Assembly: GCA_016208975.1 (NCBI GenBank)
Contig: JACQXA010000004.1
Location: 2,143,736 to 2,207,735, forward strand
Direction of reading: 5' to 3'
Length of the DNA: 64,000 bases
Source of the DNA: Nitrospinota bacterium
Lineage (GTDB): Bacteria > Nitrospinota_A > UBA7883 > JACRLM01
The notes under the pieces are model-generated. The model was given only the letters and a program-made list of their open reading frames with translations, was not told the origin of the DNA and did not search any database. Numbering within the stretch: position 1 is the first letter of the stretch; the number at the start of each line of letters is the position of its first letter. The translations under genes were made by a program, and so were the position numbers. Of this stretch, positions 8,146 to 15,702 are shown piece after piece.

Positions 8146-8177
8146 AGCGACGTTATCCCGGCAAGGCGTTTAAACGG

Positions 8178-8206
8178 CCCTCCGCTGTAAAGGCGGAGGG
8201 TTTTTT
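8178..8206 (+). terminator. Rho-independent terminator after the MCP
   Basis: Perfect 8-bp stem CCCTCCGC/GCGGAGGG with a 7-nt loop, then TTTTTT. It lies 32 bp after the MCP stop and isolates the cheW-mcp unit from the cassette that follows. Confidence 0.9.
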
Positions 8207-8304
8207 ATGACCGTGGCGTGACCTTTCCCGGCCTCCCGCTTACCTTGCAGGCCGTTCTTGTCAATATTCCCCCCTGGTAAGCATCCAGCGGCCGTAAAAA
8301 TAGT

Positions 8305-8331
8305 TTGCAAGGAGCGTGAAATTATTATACT
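8305..8331 (+). promoter_or_regulatory. Candidate promoter of the small-protein/protease cassette
   Basis: TTGCAA and TATACT spaced 15 bp apart in an AT-rich island between the MCP terminator and the small gene at 8372. The spacing is shorter than the ideal 17 bp, so it is only a candidate, but no better one is visible and the cassette needs its own start after the terminator. Confidence 0.35.
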
Positions 8332-8371: not shown

Positions 8372-8560
8372 ATGGTTGACGGAGGCGGGAAGCTGAGCGG
8401 CGCGGCTAAAAGCATGCTTAATGAAAGAAAGAAGCTGTTGACCGCGTTGAACAAAAAGAGCAAGGAAACGCTGGATCTTCAGATGAAGCTTACGGAGCTT
8501 CATGGGGAGCTGGTCAAGGAGGGGGTTTACCTTGATACGAACGCAATCATGTGCTGGTGA
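8372..8560 (+). CDS. 62-residue small protein heading the protease/radical SAM cassette
   Basis: Not recognised. The ATG at 8372 follows a perfect AGGAGG at 8359-8364 with 7-nt spacing; an in-frame upstream start at 8258 has no such site. The protein begins MVDGGGKLSGAAKSMLNERK and is mostly a charged, Lys-rich helix with heptad-like hydrophobics (residues about 12-50). It then changes to a short uncharged tail, GVYLDTNAIMCW, with a single Tyr, a single Cys and a terminal Trp. No signal peptide or membrane segment. It lies 20 bp before the caspase-like gene, then come a sulfotransferase, a radical SAM protein and an aldo/keto reductase. The leader-plus-tail architecture and context suggest a precursor peptide or a substrate of the modifying enzymes; an accessory subunit is the alternative. 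Confidence 0.6.
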   Translation: MVDGGGKLSGAAKSMLNERKKLLTALNKKSKETLDLQMKLTELHGELVKEGVYLDTNAIMCW

Positions 8561-8580
8561 ACTAAAAGGTCTAAAGGGGC

Positions 8581-10419
8581 ATGCCTTGGGGCCGCGTTCC
8601 ATACGCGTTTACCGGTGATGACGTTTTCCTGGTGGACAGCCGGGGTGGGCCGGTGTGGCCCCTCCGGTCTGAAACCGAGCTTATTGCCCTTCAAGCGCTG
8701 GCGCGTATCTTCGGCGGGGAGCTTTTTGAGACCCATGGGGTTGCCGGGCCGCCGGCCGCAGGGAGGGAAACCGTCGCAGTCTATGGGGAGGTGGATGAAT
8801 ACTCCGCCCGTCTTTACGCGCATCTCACAGGCCGCAGGTTTTTGAGGGCGGAGGCTTTGCGGGACATATCACAAGCCCCAGGCCTGTCGGTATTGATTAC
8901 TGACGGCGGATCTCTTACGGGGAAAACCCTTCAGGCCATAAATAATAACCCAGTCTCACGGTTCCAGGTTCCCGGCGTAATCTGCGGTTATCACCCGGAC
9001 CAGTTCCGGCTTCTTGCCATTTTAAAGACCGCTTCCGCGCGCTTTGTTACCGCCGGTTATGGGGATGTGGTGGAGATAGCGCCAGAACTGCCCTTTGCCG
9101 GCGCCGAGACTGAAGGGATTTCGCGGTTTGGCGGAAAGGCCAAAGTGGGCATGTTGAGGAACGCCTTGGGAAAAGGGAGCGATCAGGTTTTGATCCACTC
9201 CCATTCGGACGGAGTGGATGTTTCCCTGGGCCCGGGTGGTGTTTTGTGCCCTGTGACGGCCAAGATGAAGCCCACCGGTGCATTAACGCCGGATTGCATG
9301 GAAACAAAAAACTGTTTCAGGCTGGAGACGCCCATCATCCGGGCGCAACGGAACAAGGTTTTGATACGGCCAGAGGAGGTGAGGTGCCGGGTACTCACAC
9401 TCAGCGCCTGCTCGGCCCTTTTGCCGCCGGATTGGCATGTGGATCAGCGTATGGGGATAGCGCCAAGACTGCATGTTTCGCCATTCGTAGGCGCGATGAT
9501 AATAACCTGCGGGCTTTCACACACAAGCTTGCGGTTTATGGAGAAACTGGCCGGATTAATCGGGCAGGGGGTTCCTGTGGGGAAAGCATTGGCGAAGTTC
9601 CGGAAGATGGACATGATGAACGGAGGTGGCCGGAACCTCTATTTGATGGGGGATCCCCGCGTGGCGATACCCCCGGCCGGGCGCCGGGCTAAAACGCCTG
9701 TGGCTAAAATACCGGGCGGCAGAAGAAAAAGAGTGTTAATTGGGCGCGCAGGGGCGCAGGGGAGGCTGGCTTTTTTAAGGCTTACGCTGATGTCTGTGAT
9801 AAGCGGGGGGAAAAAATCTTCCATAGCTGGAGAGGCGCAGGAGGCGCTGAACGCGCTTCTTGCGATGGAATATGCCCTGTCGCAGAATTGCCCACCCAAA
9901 GCCGTAAACTTTTGCGCGCTCCAGTCCAGGGTTATAAGACTTCTTCTTCAAACCCTCAGGTTTTACGATGATTGGCATAAGTTTTCGGAGCCGGTTGGAG
10001 AGTCCTTGCCGCATGGCGTTTGCCCGCGGTGCGGCGGCCTGGCCGAAATGCCCCGGCTCAAGCTCCGGATAGAGGGGGCGCCCAGCCGCCGCAAAACCCT
10101 ATGCGCATATTGTGGCGTGCTGGAGGACACCTCGGCGGACTCAACCTTTTACCTTGACGCCACCCCGGAAGGCCGTTTGAAACTTATGGGGGAAAAGCCC
10201 ACGGCGCCATGCGAGGGGGGCGCGCTGGCCCATGAAGTGGGCACGGGGGGAAAGCTGTATTTCCCGTGGCCGAAAACCGGCGCTGGAAAACTTGCCGCAT
10301 ATATGGATACCGGCAAAAGGTTCAGACCGGGCAGGTATTGTTTCCACTTCATGGCGATGTATGGGCTGGACATACATTACTCCATGCTTTTCTACCGCCC
10401 GGCGGCCAGCAAACGCTGA
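8581..10419 (+). CDS. Caspase-like (CHAT/C25-type) cysteine peptidase with C-terminal zinc ribbon
   Basis: A 612-residue cytoplasmic protein. Residues about 195-365 show the caspase-hemoglobinase pattern: hydrophobic strand then IHSHSDG (His206/His208), later LTLSACSALLP with Cys277 as the candidate nucleophile, and a closing YLMGDPRVAI (Gly357-Asp-Pro), as in CHAT and gingipain-type peptidases. The first ~190 residues look like an alpha/beta pseudo-domain (SVLITDGGSLTGKTLQAI), resembling the N-terminal half of C25 enzymes. Residues 390-470 are helical. A zinc ribbon follows with C481-P-R-C484 and C508-A-Y-C511, then a beta-rich C-terminus (HYSMLFYRP). No export signal. The stop overlaps the sulfotransferase start (TGATG). 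Whether it is an active protease and what it cuts are unknown; the upstream small protein is the first candidate. Confidence 0.65.
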   Translation: MPWGRVPYAFTGDDVFLVDSRGGPVWPLRSETELIALQALARIFGGELFETHGVAGPPAAGRETVAVYGEVDEYSARLYAHLTGRRFLRAEALRDISQAPGLSVLITDGGSLTGKTLQAINNNPVSRFQVPGVICGYHPDQFRLLAILKTASARFVTAGYGDVVEIAPELPFAGAETEGISRFGGKAKVGMLRNALGKGSDQVLIHSHSDGVDVSLGPGGVLCPVTAKMKPTGALTPDCMETKNCFRLETPIIRAQRNKVLIRPEEVRCRVLTLSACSALLPPDWHVDQRMGIAPRLHVSPFVGAMIITCGLSHTSLRFMEKLAGLIGQGVPVGKALAKFRKMDMMNGGGRNLYLMGDPRVAIPPAGRRAKTPVAKIPGGRRKRVLIGRAGAQGRLAFLRLTLMSVISGGKKSSIAGEAQEALNALLAMEYALSQNCPPKAVNFCALQSRVIRLLLQTLRFYDDWHKFSEPVGESLPHGVCPRCGGLAEMPRLKLRIEGAPSRRKTLCAYCGVLEDTSADSTFYLDATPEGRLKLMGEKPTAPCEGGALAHEVGTGGKLYFPWPKTGAGKLAAYMDTGKRFRPGRYCFHFMAMYGLDIHYSMLFYRPAASKR

Positions 10420-11252
10420 TGGCGCGCGGCAAAAAGGGCGAAGCCGGGGAAAGGGTGAAAGAGCGGCCCGTTTTCATCTTCGCTTCCGGCCAGCGTACTG
10501 GAAGCACTTTGTTACAGCGACTGTTGAACACTCACCGGGACATACATATTTGGGGTGAGCATTCCGGGGGGCTTGAACCAGGGCTGGCGCGAAATTTACG
10601 CATGGCGCGGCAGGGATTAGAGATAGCCGCCACCCGGGACGGCGGCGCGGAACAGTTCGAAAGTTACCGGAAAAACCGGGCCGACCAGTGGATGGCGGCC
10701 ATGACCCCGCCCGGGCCGTGGGATGACGTGTTCCGCGATGTTTTTATAGATCTTTACGCCGGCGCGGCCAGGGATATTTTCGGAAAACGCCGGTGGGGTT
10801 TCAAGGAAACCCTGTATGACGCCGCGGACGCGCGGTTTCTTGCAGGCCTGTTTCCATCGTGCCGGATAATATTCCTGTTCCGTGATGTCCAAGAAACATA
10901 CCGCTCCATGCGCCGGAACAGCGCCATATCACCTTTTTTTTCCATAGACACATTCGTGGGCCAATGGGTCCGCATAGTCACCTCATTTCTTGAAAACGCA
11001 GGAGACAAGCCGAACGTGACGATGGCGCCTTTCTCGCAACTTATAAAAGACCCTCGCGAGGCGATGGAGATGGTGGCCGGGTTTCTTGAGGTGGACGCTG
11101 ATGGATTTGACATGGGCATTATTAAAAACGTGATTCCCGGGGCGCCGGAAATTAACTGCCCTGCGCCTAACGAAGAGGAGCTGGAGTTTATCGAGCGGGT
11201 GGCTGGTGAGACCCGGCGGGAGCTGAAGAAGCGTTTCGGAACGGCTGGATAA
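10419..11252 (+). CDS. PAPS-dependent sulfotransferase
   Basis: A 277-residue cytosolic sulfotransferase, predicted to move a sulfuryl group from 3'-phosphoadenosine 5'-phosphosulfate to a hydroxyl or phenol. The 5'-phosphosulfate loop FASGQRTGSTLLQRLL lies at residues 21-36, close to the RTGST loop of tyrosylprotein, RaxST and NodH-like enzymes, followed by IWGEHSGG. The 3'-phosphate-binding part is seen as IIFLFRDVQETYRSMRRNS near residues 148-166. The ATG at 10419 shares a base with the preceding stop, so translation is coupled; an upstream in-frame start at 10266 would lie inside the protease gene. In this cassette the acceptor could be the lone Tyr of the small protein, but a small-molecule or glycan acceptor cannot be excluded. 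Confidence 0.82.
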   Translation: MARGKKGEAGERVKERPVFIFASGQRTGSTLLQRLLNTHRDIHIWGEHSGGLEPGLARNLRMARQGLEIAATRDGGAEQFESYRKNRADQWMAAMTPPGPWDDVFRDVFIDLYAGAARDIFGKRRWGFKETLYDAADARFLAGLFPSCRIIFLFRDVQETYRSMRRNSAISPFFSIDTFVGQWVRIVTSFLENAGDKPNVTMAPFSQLIKDPREAMEMVAGFLEVDADGFDMGIIKNVIPGAPEINCPAPNEEELEFIERVAGETRRELKKRFGTAG

Positions 11253-11281
11253 AGAATTGTTGAATTAATTCGGGGGGGGCG

Positions 11282-12181
11282 ATGGCTCTTAAATATTTCG
11301 GGTGGGAGATAACCCACGCATGCAACTTAAGATGCCTGCATTGCGTCAATAAAACCGGCGCCCGAAGGAAGAACGAGCTTACGTGGGACGAGATGCTTTC
11401 CATGATAGGCAAGATAAGGGAAGCGGGCGTTACAACGGTGTTCTTTTCAGACGGGGAGCCGCTAATGTCGCCGCTGTTCATGCCGCTGGCGCGGAGGCTG
11501 AGGCAAGAGGGGTTCGGGCTGGCGCTGGTTACCAACGGCACGCTGATGACTTGGGAGATGGCGCGGGAGATAGCCGAGTTAAAGTTCGATGTGGTTGGTA
11601 TAAGCCTTGACGGGCCGGAGCCGGTTCACAACCATGTGCGCGGGCCGGCGGCGTTCGGGAAGGCGGCACAGGCGGCGCGATGGCTGAAAGAAGGGGGTAT
11701 AAGGCTTAGCGTTACTACATGCGTGAACAACGTTACGGTGGACACCCTGCCGGAATTCGCCGGGATGGTGAATGACCTGGGCGCCGATGAGTGGCAGTTG
11801 CTCACTTTGGTAAAAAGCGGCGATTTATCCGGGGATGTTGTTTATTTCGACAAGGTTGTGGCTGACAAGATGGACAGTTTCGTGATGAGGGTCAAAAACG
11901 GGAACGGCTACGGTTTCAATCTGCGGGTGATGAACTGCCTGGACCAGTTGCCGGTGAGCGTGGGGGAAAATCCGTTCAACAACCGGTGCGAGGCGGGAAC
12001 GACTTTTCTTTGCATGGCCGCCGACGGTCTGGTGAAACCATGTTTCGCCCAGCCGGACGATTATTTCCTGGGGGACATGAGGGTTGAGTCGCTTGCGGAC
12101 ATATATGGAAGGCTTGCCGATCCGGCGCATCCTTACTGGAGCCGGAAATATTGCAAGGGTTTTTGCAACACCATAATTTGA
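11282..12181 (+). CDS. Radical SAM protein with SPASM-like C-terminus
   Basis: A 299-residue radical SAM enzyme. The cluster-binding motif CNLRCLHC (Cys14, Cys18, Cys21) starts the barrel; FSDGEPLMSP is the GGE-like SAM-contact motif and VGISLDGPEPVHNHVRG is the usual strand-6 signature of peptide-modifying members. The C-terminal third carries five more cysteines (236, 244, 254, 291, 295) in the order NRCEAG, CMAADGLVKPC, YCKGFC, the arrangement of a SPASM domain that holds one or two auxiliary [4Fe-4S] clusters. SPASM proteins usually modify peptides. The gene lies 29 bp after the sulfotransferase and 6 bp before the aldo/keto reductase. The reaction (crosslink, epimerisation, thioether or other) cannot be told from sequence. 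Confidence 0.88.
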   Translation: MALKYFGWEITHACNLRCLHCVNKTGARRKNELTWDEMLSMIGKIREAGVTTVFFSDGEPLMSPLFMPLARRLRQEGFGLALVTNGTLMTWEMAREIAELKFDVVGISLDGPEPVHNHVRGPAAFGKAAQAARWLKEGGIRLSVTTCVNNVTVDTLPEFAGMVNDLGADEWQLLTLVKSGDLSGDVVYFDKVVADKMDSFVMRVKNGNGYGFNLRVMNCLDQLPVSVGENPFNNRCEAGTTFLCMAADGLVKPCFAQPDDYFLGDMRVESLADIYGRLADPAHPYWSRKYCKGFCNTII

Positions 12182-12187
12182 CACCCA

Positions 12188-13222
12188 ATGAGCCATGTCA
12201 AGTTCCGCCCGCTGGGCGCCACGGGGTTGAAGGTCTCCATCCCCTGTTTTGGCGGCCTGCACCTGGCCACAAAGCTTGGCCCGCGTGAGGCTGAAAAGCT
12301 GGTCCGTTACGCCGTGGAGCGGGGCATAAACCTGTTCGACACCTCCCGCGCCTATATGGACAGCGAGGAAAAAATAGGCCGCGGGCTGGAAAATATCAGG
12401 GGCGATATCCTGTACTGCACCAAGAGCATGCGGCGCGACGGGACGATCGTGGAAGAACTGGATGCGTCGCTGATGGCGTTGAGGACCGGTTATGTGGACA
12501 TTTACATGTTTCACAGCGTGGACCGGGAGGAGGATTACAGGAGCGTTATCCGGCGGGCCCTGCCAGCCGTGGAACGCGCAAGGCAGGCGGGCAAGATAGG
12601 GCTATTGGGCCTGTCCACCCACTCCCGGCGGATTCTGGAACTTTCAGCGCGGGAGGGGGTTTTCGATTGCCTGCAATTCCCCTTTAACCATGCGCACCGC
12701 GCCGGGCTTGCCGATGGGCTTGGAGATGAGATAGCCGGAAAAGGCATTGGCATATTGGCCATGAAACCCTTTGCCGGAGGGGTTTTGAACGATCCGGAGC
12801 TGGCCGTAAGTTTCATTGCGCAATACCCATGGGCCGTTCCCCTGGTAGGTTTTGAGAAAAAAGGGGAGATAGACCAGATAATAAGCCTGTTCGAAAATCC
12901 GCCCCCTTTCGATGAAAGGATGCGCGCCAGGGCCGACGCGGCAGTGGCCCGGACCGGGAGCGGATTTTGTTGCGGGTGCGAGTATTGCCAGCCCTGTCCC
13001 CAGGGCATTTCCGTGGCGGCTATCATGTATTACCCCGTGATAGAGCGGCAATATGGGCGGGAGAAGATGGACGCGGTGACGCTCCAGCGCCACTTTGAGC
13101 GGTTTGAAAACGATTGCGACCAGTGCCGCCAGTGCGAAAGCAAATGCCCATTCAGCCTGCCCATACTGGAAATGGCGCCCAGGCATCACCGGCGTTTTGT
13201 GAAACTGATGAATGGCGGTTGA
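12188..13222 (+). CDS. Aldo/keto reductase with two [4Fe-4S] clusters (COG1453 type)
   Basis: A 344-residue oxidoreductase. Residues 1-250 are an aldo/keto reductase barrel with the full catalytic tetrad in sequence: Asp51, Tyr56 (FDTSRAY), Lys79 (CTKSM) and His109 (MFHSVD). The C-terminal ferredoxin part has two Cys sets: C261-x2-C264-x2-C267-x2-C270-P and C310-x2-C313-x2-C316-x3-C320-P, each enough for a [4Fe-4S] cluster. The start ATG is 6 bp after the radical SAM stop. This family is common near radical SAM enzymes, where it could supply or take electrons; it may also reduce a carbonyl formed on the product. The gene ends 8 bp before a convergent histidine kinase gene. Confidence 0.88.
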   Translation: MSHVKFRPLGATGLKVSIPCFGGLHLATKLGPREAEKLVRYAVERGINLFDTSRAYMDSEEKIGRGLENIRGDILYCTKSMRRDGTIVEELDASLMALRTGYVDIYMFHSVDREEDYRSVIRRALPAVERARQAGKIGLLGLSTHSRRILELSAREGVFDCLQFPFNHAHRAGLADGLGDEIAGKGIGILAMKPFAGGVLNDPELAVSFIAQYPWAVPLVGFEKKGEIDQIISLFENPPPFDERMRARADAAVARTGSGFCCGCEYCQPCPQGISVAAIMYYPVIERQYGREKMDAVTLQRHFERFENDCDQCRQCESKCPFSLPILEMAPRHHRRFVKLMNGG

Positions 13223-13230
13223 GGCGCGGC

Positions 13231-15702
13231 CTAGTAGATGAACCTGCGGACGCGGGGAATGAAATCGGCGGGCTCCATGAGTTTTGAGATGAAATCGTTG
13301 GCGCCCAGCCGGAAGGCTTTCTCACGGGTTTCCATGTTGGAGTCGGACGTGACCACGATTACCGGGACGTTCTTGGTTTTGGGGGCGCCGCGCAGGCGCG
13401 TAAGCAGGTCGAACCCGCCCATCACCGGCATGAAGATGTCCATTATCACCAGGTCCGGGATAACGCTATCCATCATGTCCAGAGCCTCCTCGCCGTCGCC
13501 GGCCTCCTCGATTACCGCGTCTATCTTTTCCAGGTAGCGGCGGTAAACGGCGCGGACTATTTTCTCGTCCTCCACCAGCAGGATAAGCGGCTTTTTCACC
13601 GGGAGCGACGCTATAAACACGCTTCCCTTCCCTTTTTCCGACTCCACCGCTATGGAGCCGCCGTGGGCTTTCATGATGTCGTCGCAGTATGGAAGGCCAA
13701 GGCCGGTGCCTTTTTCGCCAGCGGTGCCAAGGGTGGAGGTCTTTATTTCATGACGGAACAGGTCGGGCGCGATCTCCGGGTTTATCCCTATGCCATTGTC
13801 CCTCACCGCCACAGATCCCGGCTTACCCTTGGGCTGGAAAAGCTCGACAACGGATCCGGCGGGCGAAAACTTTATGGCGTTGGCGATGAGGTTTAGAAGC
13901 ACCTGCGAGAAAAGCTCCGGGTCGGCGTAAATCCGCGAGCCGGGGGCCACGTTGTTGCGGATATTGATGGTTTTCTCCTCGGCCACGTATTTCATCGCCG
14001 ACATGGCCGATTCAGCCAGGATGTGGGCGTCCTGGAATCTAGGCTGGGGGGTAATGGCGCCGGTCTTCAAACGGCTTATGTCCAGCAGTTCGTTGATCAT
14101 CTGTATGATCCGCTCGCCGCTCTTGCCTATGTGCCACAGCATCTCCCGGTGTTTTACCATAAGGTTCTGGCCCGCCTCGCGGTTGATGAGGTTTAGCAGG
14201 CCCACCATGGAGGTGAGGGGCGACTTCAGGTCGTGCGCCACAAGCGACACGAACTTGTCTTTCAACCGGGTGGCTTCCTCCGCCGTTTCCTTGGCCTTTA
14301 TAAGCTCTTCCTCCGAGGCTTTCCGCTGGTTGATGTCAATCATCGCGCCGCGCAATGACACGGGCTTGCCCTCCACGCGGGTGACGGTGACGATGTCCCG
14401 GAACCAGACGGGCTGGCCGTTGGAGTTCATGAAACGGTACTCCAGGTCGTGGTCGAGCCCCTTGCCGGCGGCGGTCATGGAATATTCCACGGCGCGGGCC
14501 CTGTCGTCCGGATGGATATGGTTTTTCCAGAAATCCAGCTCGCTCCATTTTTTTATGGGATAGCCCAGGATCTCCACGGCCTGGTTGCTGACGAAGGTGA
14601 ACTGCCTGGATTGAGGATCCGCCTCCCAGGAGATAAGGCGCACTCCTTCCACCAGGAGCTTGTAGCGTTCCTGGCTTTTTAACAGCGCCTCCTGGGCCAC
14701 GGCCCGTTCCCTGGCCTCAAGCTTCAGCCTCTGGTTGGCGCTCATAAGTTCCGAAGTGCGGCTGGTTACGCGGGTTTCCATCTCAGCCTGGGCGTTGGCC
14801 AGTTCCATTTCCGCTTCCTTCAGCTGGGTGATGTCCACCGCGAAGGCAATGACCCCTTTTATGATGCCCTCCCTGTCTTTGTAGGGGACCTTGTCTATCT
14901 TCACCCACCGGGAGCGCCCCTCTTTGCGGATGGTGGTGATGATGTTAGTCTTCGGCTGGCCGGTTATCATCACCTCCAGGTCGTCCAGGCGGAACCTCTC
15001 GGCGTCTTCCGGCGGGAAAATATCGAAGGATGTTTTTTGTAACACCTGGGCCCGGCCGGCGCCGATGAAATCCAGGAACGCCTTGTTGGCGCGCACTATC
15101 CGGTTTTCCCTGTCCTTGAATATCACCATGGCGGGGATGGCGTTGAGTATTGTCTCCAGCTGTTCTTCCTGCGCCTGCCACAATTCCTCGGCGGCGCGTT
15201 TGGCGGCCAGGGCCGTATTTCGTTCGGTAATGTCCCTGGCGATGGAAATAACTGTTTGCTTTCCATCCATGTCAAAAATATGGGAGCTTACCTCAACGGG
15301 TATTTTGCGGCCGCTTTTCGCCTTGTGGATCCATTCGATCCTGAGGGACTTTTTCTCCATGAATTCGGCCATTACCGTTTTCAGGTTTACGGTTGGCGAG
15401 TCCATCCCGGAGATGTCCGCCACGGTCAGGCCCATAAACTCGCCGCGGCTGTATTCAAGCCTGTGGACGGCCACGTCGTTTACGTCTATGAATGGGCCGG
15501 GGGAACCGTCTTCTAAAAGGTGATAGACGAAGATGGCGTCGTTGACGCTGTTGAACAGGAGGCGGTACCAGTCATCGCCCGCCAAAGCTTCCTTTGGTGG
15601 CTCTTGCCCGGCGCCTTTGAAAGCCGGTTTGGATATCTGGTCCAGTCCGTTCATTAAAAGCCGCTTACCCCAGAGTTTGCCCTGTAAATTTGGATGCGAC
15701 AA
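13231..15702 (-). CDS. Hybrid sensor histidine kinase (three PAS, HisKA, HATPase, receiver)
   Basis: Predicted cytoplasmic kinase of 823 residues without membrane segments. PAS domains lie at about 45-165, 175-290 and 345-460, separated by a coiled coil near 290-340. The dimerisation helix carries LVAHDLKSPL with the phospho-acceptor His490, followed by N-box INLIANAIKFSP-type and G-box DNGIGI motifs. A C-terminal receiver has LVIMDIFMPV with Asp755, T/S in VVTSDS and the Lys switch FISKL. The longest frame starts at TTG (15702); an ATG 16 codons inside (15654) is equally possible and neither has a strong ribosome site. The gene is convergent to the aldo/keto reductase and divergent to the amidohydrolase. 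Its target regulator is not in the window. Confidence 0.92.
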   Translation of the reverse strand: MSHPNLQGKLWGKRLLMNGLDQISKPAFKGAGQEPPKEALAGDDWYRLLFNSVNDAIFVYHLLEDGSPGPFIDVNDVAVHRLEYSRGEFMGLTVADISGMDSPTVNLKTVMAEFMEKKSLRIEWIHKAKSGRKIPVEVSSHIFDMDGKQTVISIARDITERNTALAAKRAAEELWQAQEEQLETILNAIPAMVIFKDRENRIVRANKAFLDFIGAGRAQVLQKTSFDIFPPEDAERFRLDDLEVMITGQPKTNIITTIRKEGRSRWVKIDKVPYKDREGIIKGVIAFAVDITQLKEAEMELANAQAEMETRVTSRTSELMSANQRLKLEARERAVAQEALLKSQERYKLLVEGVRLISWEADPQSRQFTFVSNQAVEILGYPIKKWSELDFWKNHIHPDDRARAVEYSMTAAGKGLDHDLEYRFMNSNGQPVWFRDIVTVTRVEGKPVSLRGAMIDINQRKASEEELIKAKETAEEATRLKDKFVSLVAHDLKSPLTSMVGLLNLINREAGQNLMVKHREMLWHIGKSGERIIQMINELLDISRLKTGAITPQPRFQDAHILAESAMSAMKYVAEEKTINIRNNVAPGSRIYADPELFSQVLLNLIANAIKFSPAGSVVELFQPKGKPGSVAVRDNGIGINPEIAPDLFRHEIKTSTLGTAGEKGTGLGLPYCDDIMKAHGGSIAVESEKGKGSVFIASLPVKKPLILLVEDEKIVRAVYRRYLEKIDAVIEEAGDGEEALDMMDSVIPDLVIMDIFMPVMGGFDLLTRLRGAPKTKNVPVIVVTSDSNMETREKAFRLGANDFISKLMEPADFIPRVRRFIY

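Follow-up and report, generated by a model that had tools for sequence, protein, structure and literature searches.

A divergent BlsK-like protein with a predicted CHAT fold in an operon-like gene cassette of a Nitrospinota bacterium

Introduction

What might a caspase-like protein, a sulfotransferase and a radical S-adenosylmethionine (SAM) enzyme be making together? The question is raised by five adjoining genes at positions 8372-13222 of a 64,000-nucleotide stretch of a Nitrospinota bacterium genome, the whole of which is referred to here as the window. The original prediction, made from the letters of the DNA, was that the cassette encodes a ribosomally made peptide that is modified, sulfated and cut, in a pathway for which no description was known. 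The claim of novelty held up, as literature searches found no paper joining CHAT, radical SAM and sulfotransferase functions. For the caspase-like protein another role is suggested here: this 612-residue protein is a divergent member of a family found mostly in actinomycete antibiotic clusters, in one of which it occupies the position of BlsK, and the cassette may be a small biosynthetic operon. The five open reading frames (ORFs), in which PAPS denotes 3'-phosphoadenosine 5'-phosphosulfate, are as follows.

8372-8560, + strand: 62-residue protein (ORF list and translation)
8581-10419, + strand: 612-residue BlsK-like protein, predicted CHAT fold, with a C-terminal zinc ribbon (homologue and profile comparisons)
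10419-11252, + strand: 277-residue PAPS-dependent sulfotransferase, Sulfotransfer_3 (Pfam, motifs)
11282-12181, + strand: 299-residue radical SAM protein with an atypical or truncated, SPASM-like C-terminus containing six cysteines (Pfam, NCBIfam)
12188-13222, + strand: 344-residue aldo/keto reductase fused to a dicluster-ferredoxin-like C-terminus (Pfam, NCBIfam)

Results

Taken alone, the 612-residue protein had no significant match in Pfam, NCBIfam or PADLOC, and sequence searches found no relative in the PDB, where a two-sequence profile also returned nothing significant. Peptide patterns revealed no close homologue in 84,980 species, and searches with a two- or eight-sequence profile found no relative in 385 genomes, a set drawn as relatives that included all 24 genomes of the phylum (23 besides its own) and about 360 other non-actinomycete genomes. 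The first family match came from a Rhodococcus opacus plasmid (tblastn, E 7e-16). Two sets drawn of about 390 actinomycete genomes, when searched by profile, yielded members in four genomes (G393, G590 and G651, then G676), and plasmid searches added members from Streptomyces, Kitasatospora and Embleya. A nine-member profile built without the window protein recovered it at 4e-24, against a best value of 0.29 in 500 shuffles, while clade-to-clade profile comparisons gave E values of 7e-14, 5e-13 and 2e-5 (scores of 113, 107 and 50), with no score above 21.5 among 30 column-shuffled controls. These comparisons show the 612-residue protein to be a divergent member of a zinc-ribbon family predicted to have a CHAT fold and to be cysteine-dependent.

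The nearest relative of the window protein is that on the R. opacus plasmid (L032:7758-9404). It has no annotation in the PLSDB table and no dyad histidine, and fragmented non-ribosomal peptide synthetase (NRPS) genes lie beside it. A further relative, on a 15-kb plasmid of Bombilactobacillus folatiphilus whose source is listed as Tetragonula carbonaria, is split over several short ORFs and looks like a broken gene (L118:6101-7543). A fragment resembling the C-terminal part of the family lies on a Streptosporangium plasmid (L096:1314-9590), close to genes for a radical SAM protein, thymidylate kinases, a HAD protein and a PurC-like protein, in a region that is possibly a decayed nucleoside cluster. 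Weak matches to the A4 profile in two genomes (G527 and G680) were false, and one in G519 was not confirmed. A DNA pattern for the zinc ribbon had ten matches in viral contigs, all of them noise when judged by profile, and none in genome contigs; patterns taken from profiles were either too little conserved for use on viral contigs or gave no confirmed match there.

The active-site features of the 612-residue protein were located by aligning 14 family members.

9202-9204, + strand: His208, the CHAT dyad histidine (HSHSDG), a histidine in 11/14 members
9247-9315, + strand: Cys223, Cys239 and Cys245, a family-specific triad, invariant in 14/14
9409-9411, + strand: Cys277, aligned with the CHAT nucleophile, invariant in 14/14
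10021-10113, + strand: zinc ribbon CPRC...CAYC (Cys481/484/508/511), from the family alignment

Three of the zinc-ribbon cysteines (Cys484, Cys508 and Cys511) are likewise invariant in all 14. Comparison of the family profile with an alignment of 28 Pfam CHAT domains (PF12770, clan CD peptidases) scored 44.6 (E 5.6e-5), with the register exact at the nucleophile cysteine, whereas 40 controls reached at most 14.9. The cysteine of the His/Cys dyad is thus placed in the CHAT register by profile comparison, and the histidine by the family alignment only. The window protein itself falls under the cut-off of the Pfam CHAT model, and the family differs from CHAT peptidases in its additional cysteine triad, its zinc ribbon and its biosynthetic contexts. 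Single-sequence AlphaFold2 models reached a predicted local distance difference test (pLDDT) score of only 34 and 29. By the profile alignment, the earlier description of a His/Cys caspase-fold enzyme was right in kind; significance is attained with the family profile alone, and the single sequence lacks database support. The alignments support a predicted active-site layout of the caspase (CHAT) superfamily.

Genes of this family already occur, without a name, in antibiotic clusters of known types. Its members lie mostly in actinomycete clusters that are peptidyl-nucleoside or otherwise amino-acid-derived, most of them without a visible precursor peptide. In a blasticidin-S-type cluster on a plasmid of Kitasatospora NBC_00039 (L119:7956-9836), a 'hypothetical protein' of the family follows genes for cytosylglucuronate synthase, blsE, blsF, blsG, a DegT aminotransferase, an ATP-grasp ligase and a major facilitator superfamily (MFS) protein, and is followed on its 3' side by a BlsL-type methyltransferase, a nucleoside 2-deoxyribosyltransferase and an M1 peptidase. 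Its place between blsJ and blsL makes it the positional BlsK, and by profile it shares the CHAT-like core, the cysteine nucleophile, the cysteine triad and the zinc ribbon. Production of blasticidin S requires leucylation of demethylblasticidin S by an enzyme that had not been identified (PMC5572114), and the Kitasatospora CHAT-like protein is a candidate for this leucyl transferase, the leucyldemethylblasticidin S (LDBS) synthetase. In the mildiomycin pathway, MilH, which is likened to the family by description rather than by sequence comparison, has been annotated as a putative tRNA-dependent aminoacyltransferase, with MilI as a putative carrier protein (PMC11784345).

Other members recur in similar company. 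Arginomycin-type clusters contain the family gene in G676, where BlsE reaches 632 bits and the genes for beta-methylarginine exceed their cut-offs, and in Streptomyces NBC_00467. Streptomyces linear plasmids (L091, L092 and L093) conserve the order QueD-QueE-FolE-(A-T)-HAD-family gene-phosphoribosyltransferase (PRTase)-QueC-epimerase, A-T denoting adenylation-thiolation, which looks like an undescribed pathway to a 7-deazaguanine aminoacyl nucleoside. In S. clavuligerus and NBC_01244, the order is TauD-serine hydroxymethyltransferase (SHMT)-aminotransferase-(A-T)-HAD-family gene, and in Streptomyces NBC_00557 it is NRPS-TauD-ATP-grasp-family gene-MFS. The contexts in G590 and G651 are not clearly biosynthetic. 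In G393, the family gene begins 6 bp after a gene for a haem-oxygenase-like-domain protein. This is the second of two such proteins at the locus (L088:5096-10573), both with N-termini that by eye resemble PqqD or the recognition element (RRE) of ribosomally synthesised and post-translationally modified peptide (RiPP) pathways, and the locus is possibly a RiPP-type cluster. At the ten actinomycete loci tested, neither the small ORF nor the sulfotransferase or reductase of the window had a homologue, and the only radical SAM match was BlsE in G676. No nucleoside or amino-acid antibiotic cluster genes lie within or beside 8372-13222.

The enzymes accompanying the 612-residue protein were largely as first described. 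The sulfotransferase matches PF13469 (1e-16) and keeps both PAPS motifs, the predicted RTGST loop and the 3'-phosphate motif RDVQETYRS, with no relative found in the PDB by sequence search. The redox gene is an aldo/keto reductase (PF00248, 1e-25) with two C-terminal cysteine clusters resembling a dicluster ferredoxin, in agreement with its earlier designation as an Fe-S enzyme. The fourth gene had been called a peptide-type radical SAM protein with SPASM cysteines: its radical SAM site stands (PF04055, 6e-28; CNLRCLHC), but its SPASM part looks atypical, with six C-terminal cysteines (219, 236, 244, 254, 291 and 295) and a SPASM match of 18.4 bits, under the Pfam cut-off of 21.5. From its sequence it is best called SPASM-like rather than canonical. 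Among curated families, GDL, Nif11-3 and NirJ come nearest, each with a score far under its cut-off, and its best match within the phylum is about 35% identical. Among solved structures, the best match is the BlsE-type cytosylglucuronate decarboxylase, with SkfB covering nearly the full length; its BlsE-family score is far under the cut-off (54 of 400 bits). The neighbourhoods of GDL, Nif11 and other radical SAM genes on plasmids contained no CHAT, sulfotransferase or reductase partner, and no RRE/PqqD leader-binding domain was matched in the five cassette proteins by Pfam or NCBIfam.

The 62-residue protein had been described as having a leader-like helix and a tail, and both are evident: a charged amphipathic helix (residues ~8-48) precedes the C-terminal tail GVYLDTNAIMCW. 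The ORF is also well coded, with a Shine-Dalgarno sequence (GGAGG) at normal spacing and a codon score of 0.386 bits per codon in its own frame, compared with a maximum of 0.299 among 145 other window ORFs of 50-75 residues. It has no family match in Pfam or NCBIfam and no relatives on 72,556 plasmids; a Rhizobium match arose by chance, inside a 637-residue ORF. From its sequence, the protein is a candidate ribosomal substrate or scaffold. When synteny and conservation of the small ORF were tested together, no second locus with this gene set was found, and the association that the original prediction expected across genomes was not seen. Because the cassette is an orphan, this is a lack of evidence for a ribosomal substrate, and not a disproof of one.

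Discussion

The family of the 612-residue protein recurs in pathways that form amide bonds with amino acids, mostly without a visible precursor peptide, and its members are therefore more easily explained as acyl or aminoacyl transferases than as leader peptidases. The one role put forward for genes of this kind, MilH and BlsK (a putative tRNA-dependent leucyltransferase), is transfer of an aminoacyl group from tRNA, not proteolysis. We tentatively favour, at somewhat under an even chance, the reading of the cassette as a small biosynthetic operon: its BlsK-like enzyme would acylate (or cleave) a substrate, probably the 62-residue protein, with tailoring by the radical SAM, PAPS-dependent and reductase enzymes. 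Cys277 would form an acyl-enzyme, and an aminoacyl group donated by aminoacyl-tRNA or another compound would be passed to an amine; this transfer would replace or precede the hydrolysis of a peptide bond. The acceptor would most likely be the 62-residue helical protein or its C-terminal tail, because none of the cassette genes encodes an enzyme that would make another scaffold. The radical SAM enzyme could then act on a residue, either of the scaffold or of the amino acid just added; sulfation of a hydroxyl would fall to the sulfotransferase, and reduction or electrons could come from the Fe-S aldo/keto reductase.

Several considerations weigh against this proposal. The window protein is only about 14% identical to the blasticidin-type member, so its function may differ, and the histidine corresponding to His208 is replaced in 3/14 members. 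No second copy of the cassette was found to confirm the small ORF as a member of it, and the cassette has no A-T, ATP-grasp or nucleoside genes. The relationship to CHAT itself suggests peptidase chemistry.

Peptidase chemistry is the premise of the original prediction, in which the 62-residue protein is a RiPP precursor whose tail is modified by the radical SAM enzyme and sulfotransferase, and whose leader is removed by the CHAT-like protein. Consistent with this, the operon begins with the well-coded small ORF, and the CHAT fold is one of peptidases; GDL/Nif11-type peptide maturases are the closest to the radical SAM protein, SkfB covers it nearly end to end, and the relative in G393 follows proteins with apparent PqqD/RRE-like N-termini. 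Nevertheless, most family contexts are peptidyl-nucleoside or NRPS-like and lack a precursor peptide, the cassette has neither an RRE gene nor a transporter, the small ORF is not conserved anywhere searched, and a 2023 review of RiPP proteases does not mention clan CD or caspase-type leader peptidases (PMC10885120). The role of leader protease is not supported by the distribution of the family, and this explanation as a whole is possible but on the unlikely side. Those same contexts lend themselves to the modification of a host metabolite, such as an amino sugar, amino acid or nucleoside, with the 62-residue protein an accessory or carrier rather than the substrate. The BlsE-type best structural match of the radical SAM protein points the same way, as does the pairing of MilH with the small carrier-like MilI (PMC11784345), but the operon contains no scaffold-forming enzyme, the 62-residue protein has no DSL-type carrier motif, and the BlsE-family score is low; we consider this small-molecule pathway unlikely. 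It is very improbable that the cassette is a CHAT effector or defence-type system whose protease acts on cell proteins and is controlled or supplied by the small protein and a radical SAM product. Actinobacterial conflict systems do hold caspase-like peptidases and radical-SAM-modified FxSxx peptides (PMC7159879), and the radical SAM gene has weak pVip matches, yet the cassette lacks NTPase, sensor and effector genes, PADLOC matched only generic radical SAM proteins, and the sulfotransferase and reductase fit biosynthesis, as do the family's relatives in antibiotic clusters.

The cassette shares parts with several known systems without matching any. Blasticidin-S-type clusters also contain a radical SAM gene alongside the BlsK gene, whereas the window has no cytosylglucuronate genes, amino-acid-activating enzyme or transporter. 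The sulfated peptide RaxX had been named as a distant parallel, which is apt in that a protein of about 60 residues adjoins a PAPS sulfotransferase, as in RaxX/RaxST (PMC6637879), but not in other respects: the Rax system has the RaxAB secretion complex, in which RaxB cuts a double-glycine leader, but lacks genes for radical SAM, CHAT and reductase proteins, while the RaxA/RaxB exporter and peptidase are absent from the cassette. The PQQ, mycofactocin and GDL/Nif11 RiPP systems likewise place a small ORF beside a SPASM-like radical SAM gene and an oxidoreductase, with generic similarity of 25-35%, whereas the cassette proteins are far under the family cut-offs, lack an RRE/PqqD gene and include another type of peptidase.

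Peptide aminoacyl-tRNA ligase (PEARL) pathways add an amino acid to a scaffold peptide and modify it afterwards. If aminoacyl transfer is correct, the cassette resembles these pathways in general terms, although the enzyme fold is unrelated and there is no LanB-like gene. A specific form of the favoured reading, which we regard as quite improbable, is that the CHAT-fold enzyme extends the ribosomal 62-residue scaffold by aminoacyl-tRNA-dependent transfer, with the added residue then rearranged and sulfated, as a parallel to PEARL pathways outside the actinomycetes in which a protease fold has become that of a transferase.

The family's CHAT nature, and its presence with a small ORF, a sulfotransferase and a SPASM-like radical SAM gene, appear to be new. 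The positional BlsK, a candidate for the leucylating enzyme that was reported as undemonstrated in 2017, is now tied to the caspase/CHAT superfamily, and the cassette gives the family a new context in which its substrate may be ribosomal. Should aminoacyl transfer prove to be the family's activity, antibiotic and perhaps peptide pathways would have taken over a protease fold to form amide bonds.

Locus boundaries and acquisition

The predicted layout, of five same-strand genes bordered by a terminator and a convergent gene, was confirmed from the ORFs and the hairpin: the five + strand ORFs are separated by 20, -1, 29 and 6 bp, and the convergent gene ends 8 bp past the last cassette stop. This arrangement supports a single operon-like biosynthetic unit. 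The features at its edges are listed below, the numbers of terminator-like and promoter-like matches both being near shuffle expectation.

8176-8202, + strand: hairpin resembling a Rho-independent terminator, ending the upstream methyl-accepting chemotaxis protein (MCP) gene (11-pair stem, 7 G-C pairs, T-run)
8304-8331, + strand: weak sigma-70-like promoter match 5' of the cassette (9/12 positions)
13231-15702, - strand: convergent hybrid histidine kinase, a boundary outside the cassette (translation read by eye)

The flanking genes are ordinary, encoding CheW, the MCP, the kinase, a DUF255 protein and enolase. Codon scores of the four enzymes are 0.09-0.25 bits per codon, compared with 0.3-0.6 in the majority of 16 window genes taken as a reference. 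These low scores and the absence of the cassette from the rest of the phylum are consistent with recent acquisition, without proving it, and the cassette was probably acquired horizontally. Elsewhere in the same genome, outside the window, a dense region of contig C1 (~208-260 kb) has about eight radical SAM matches in 52 kb.

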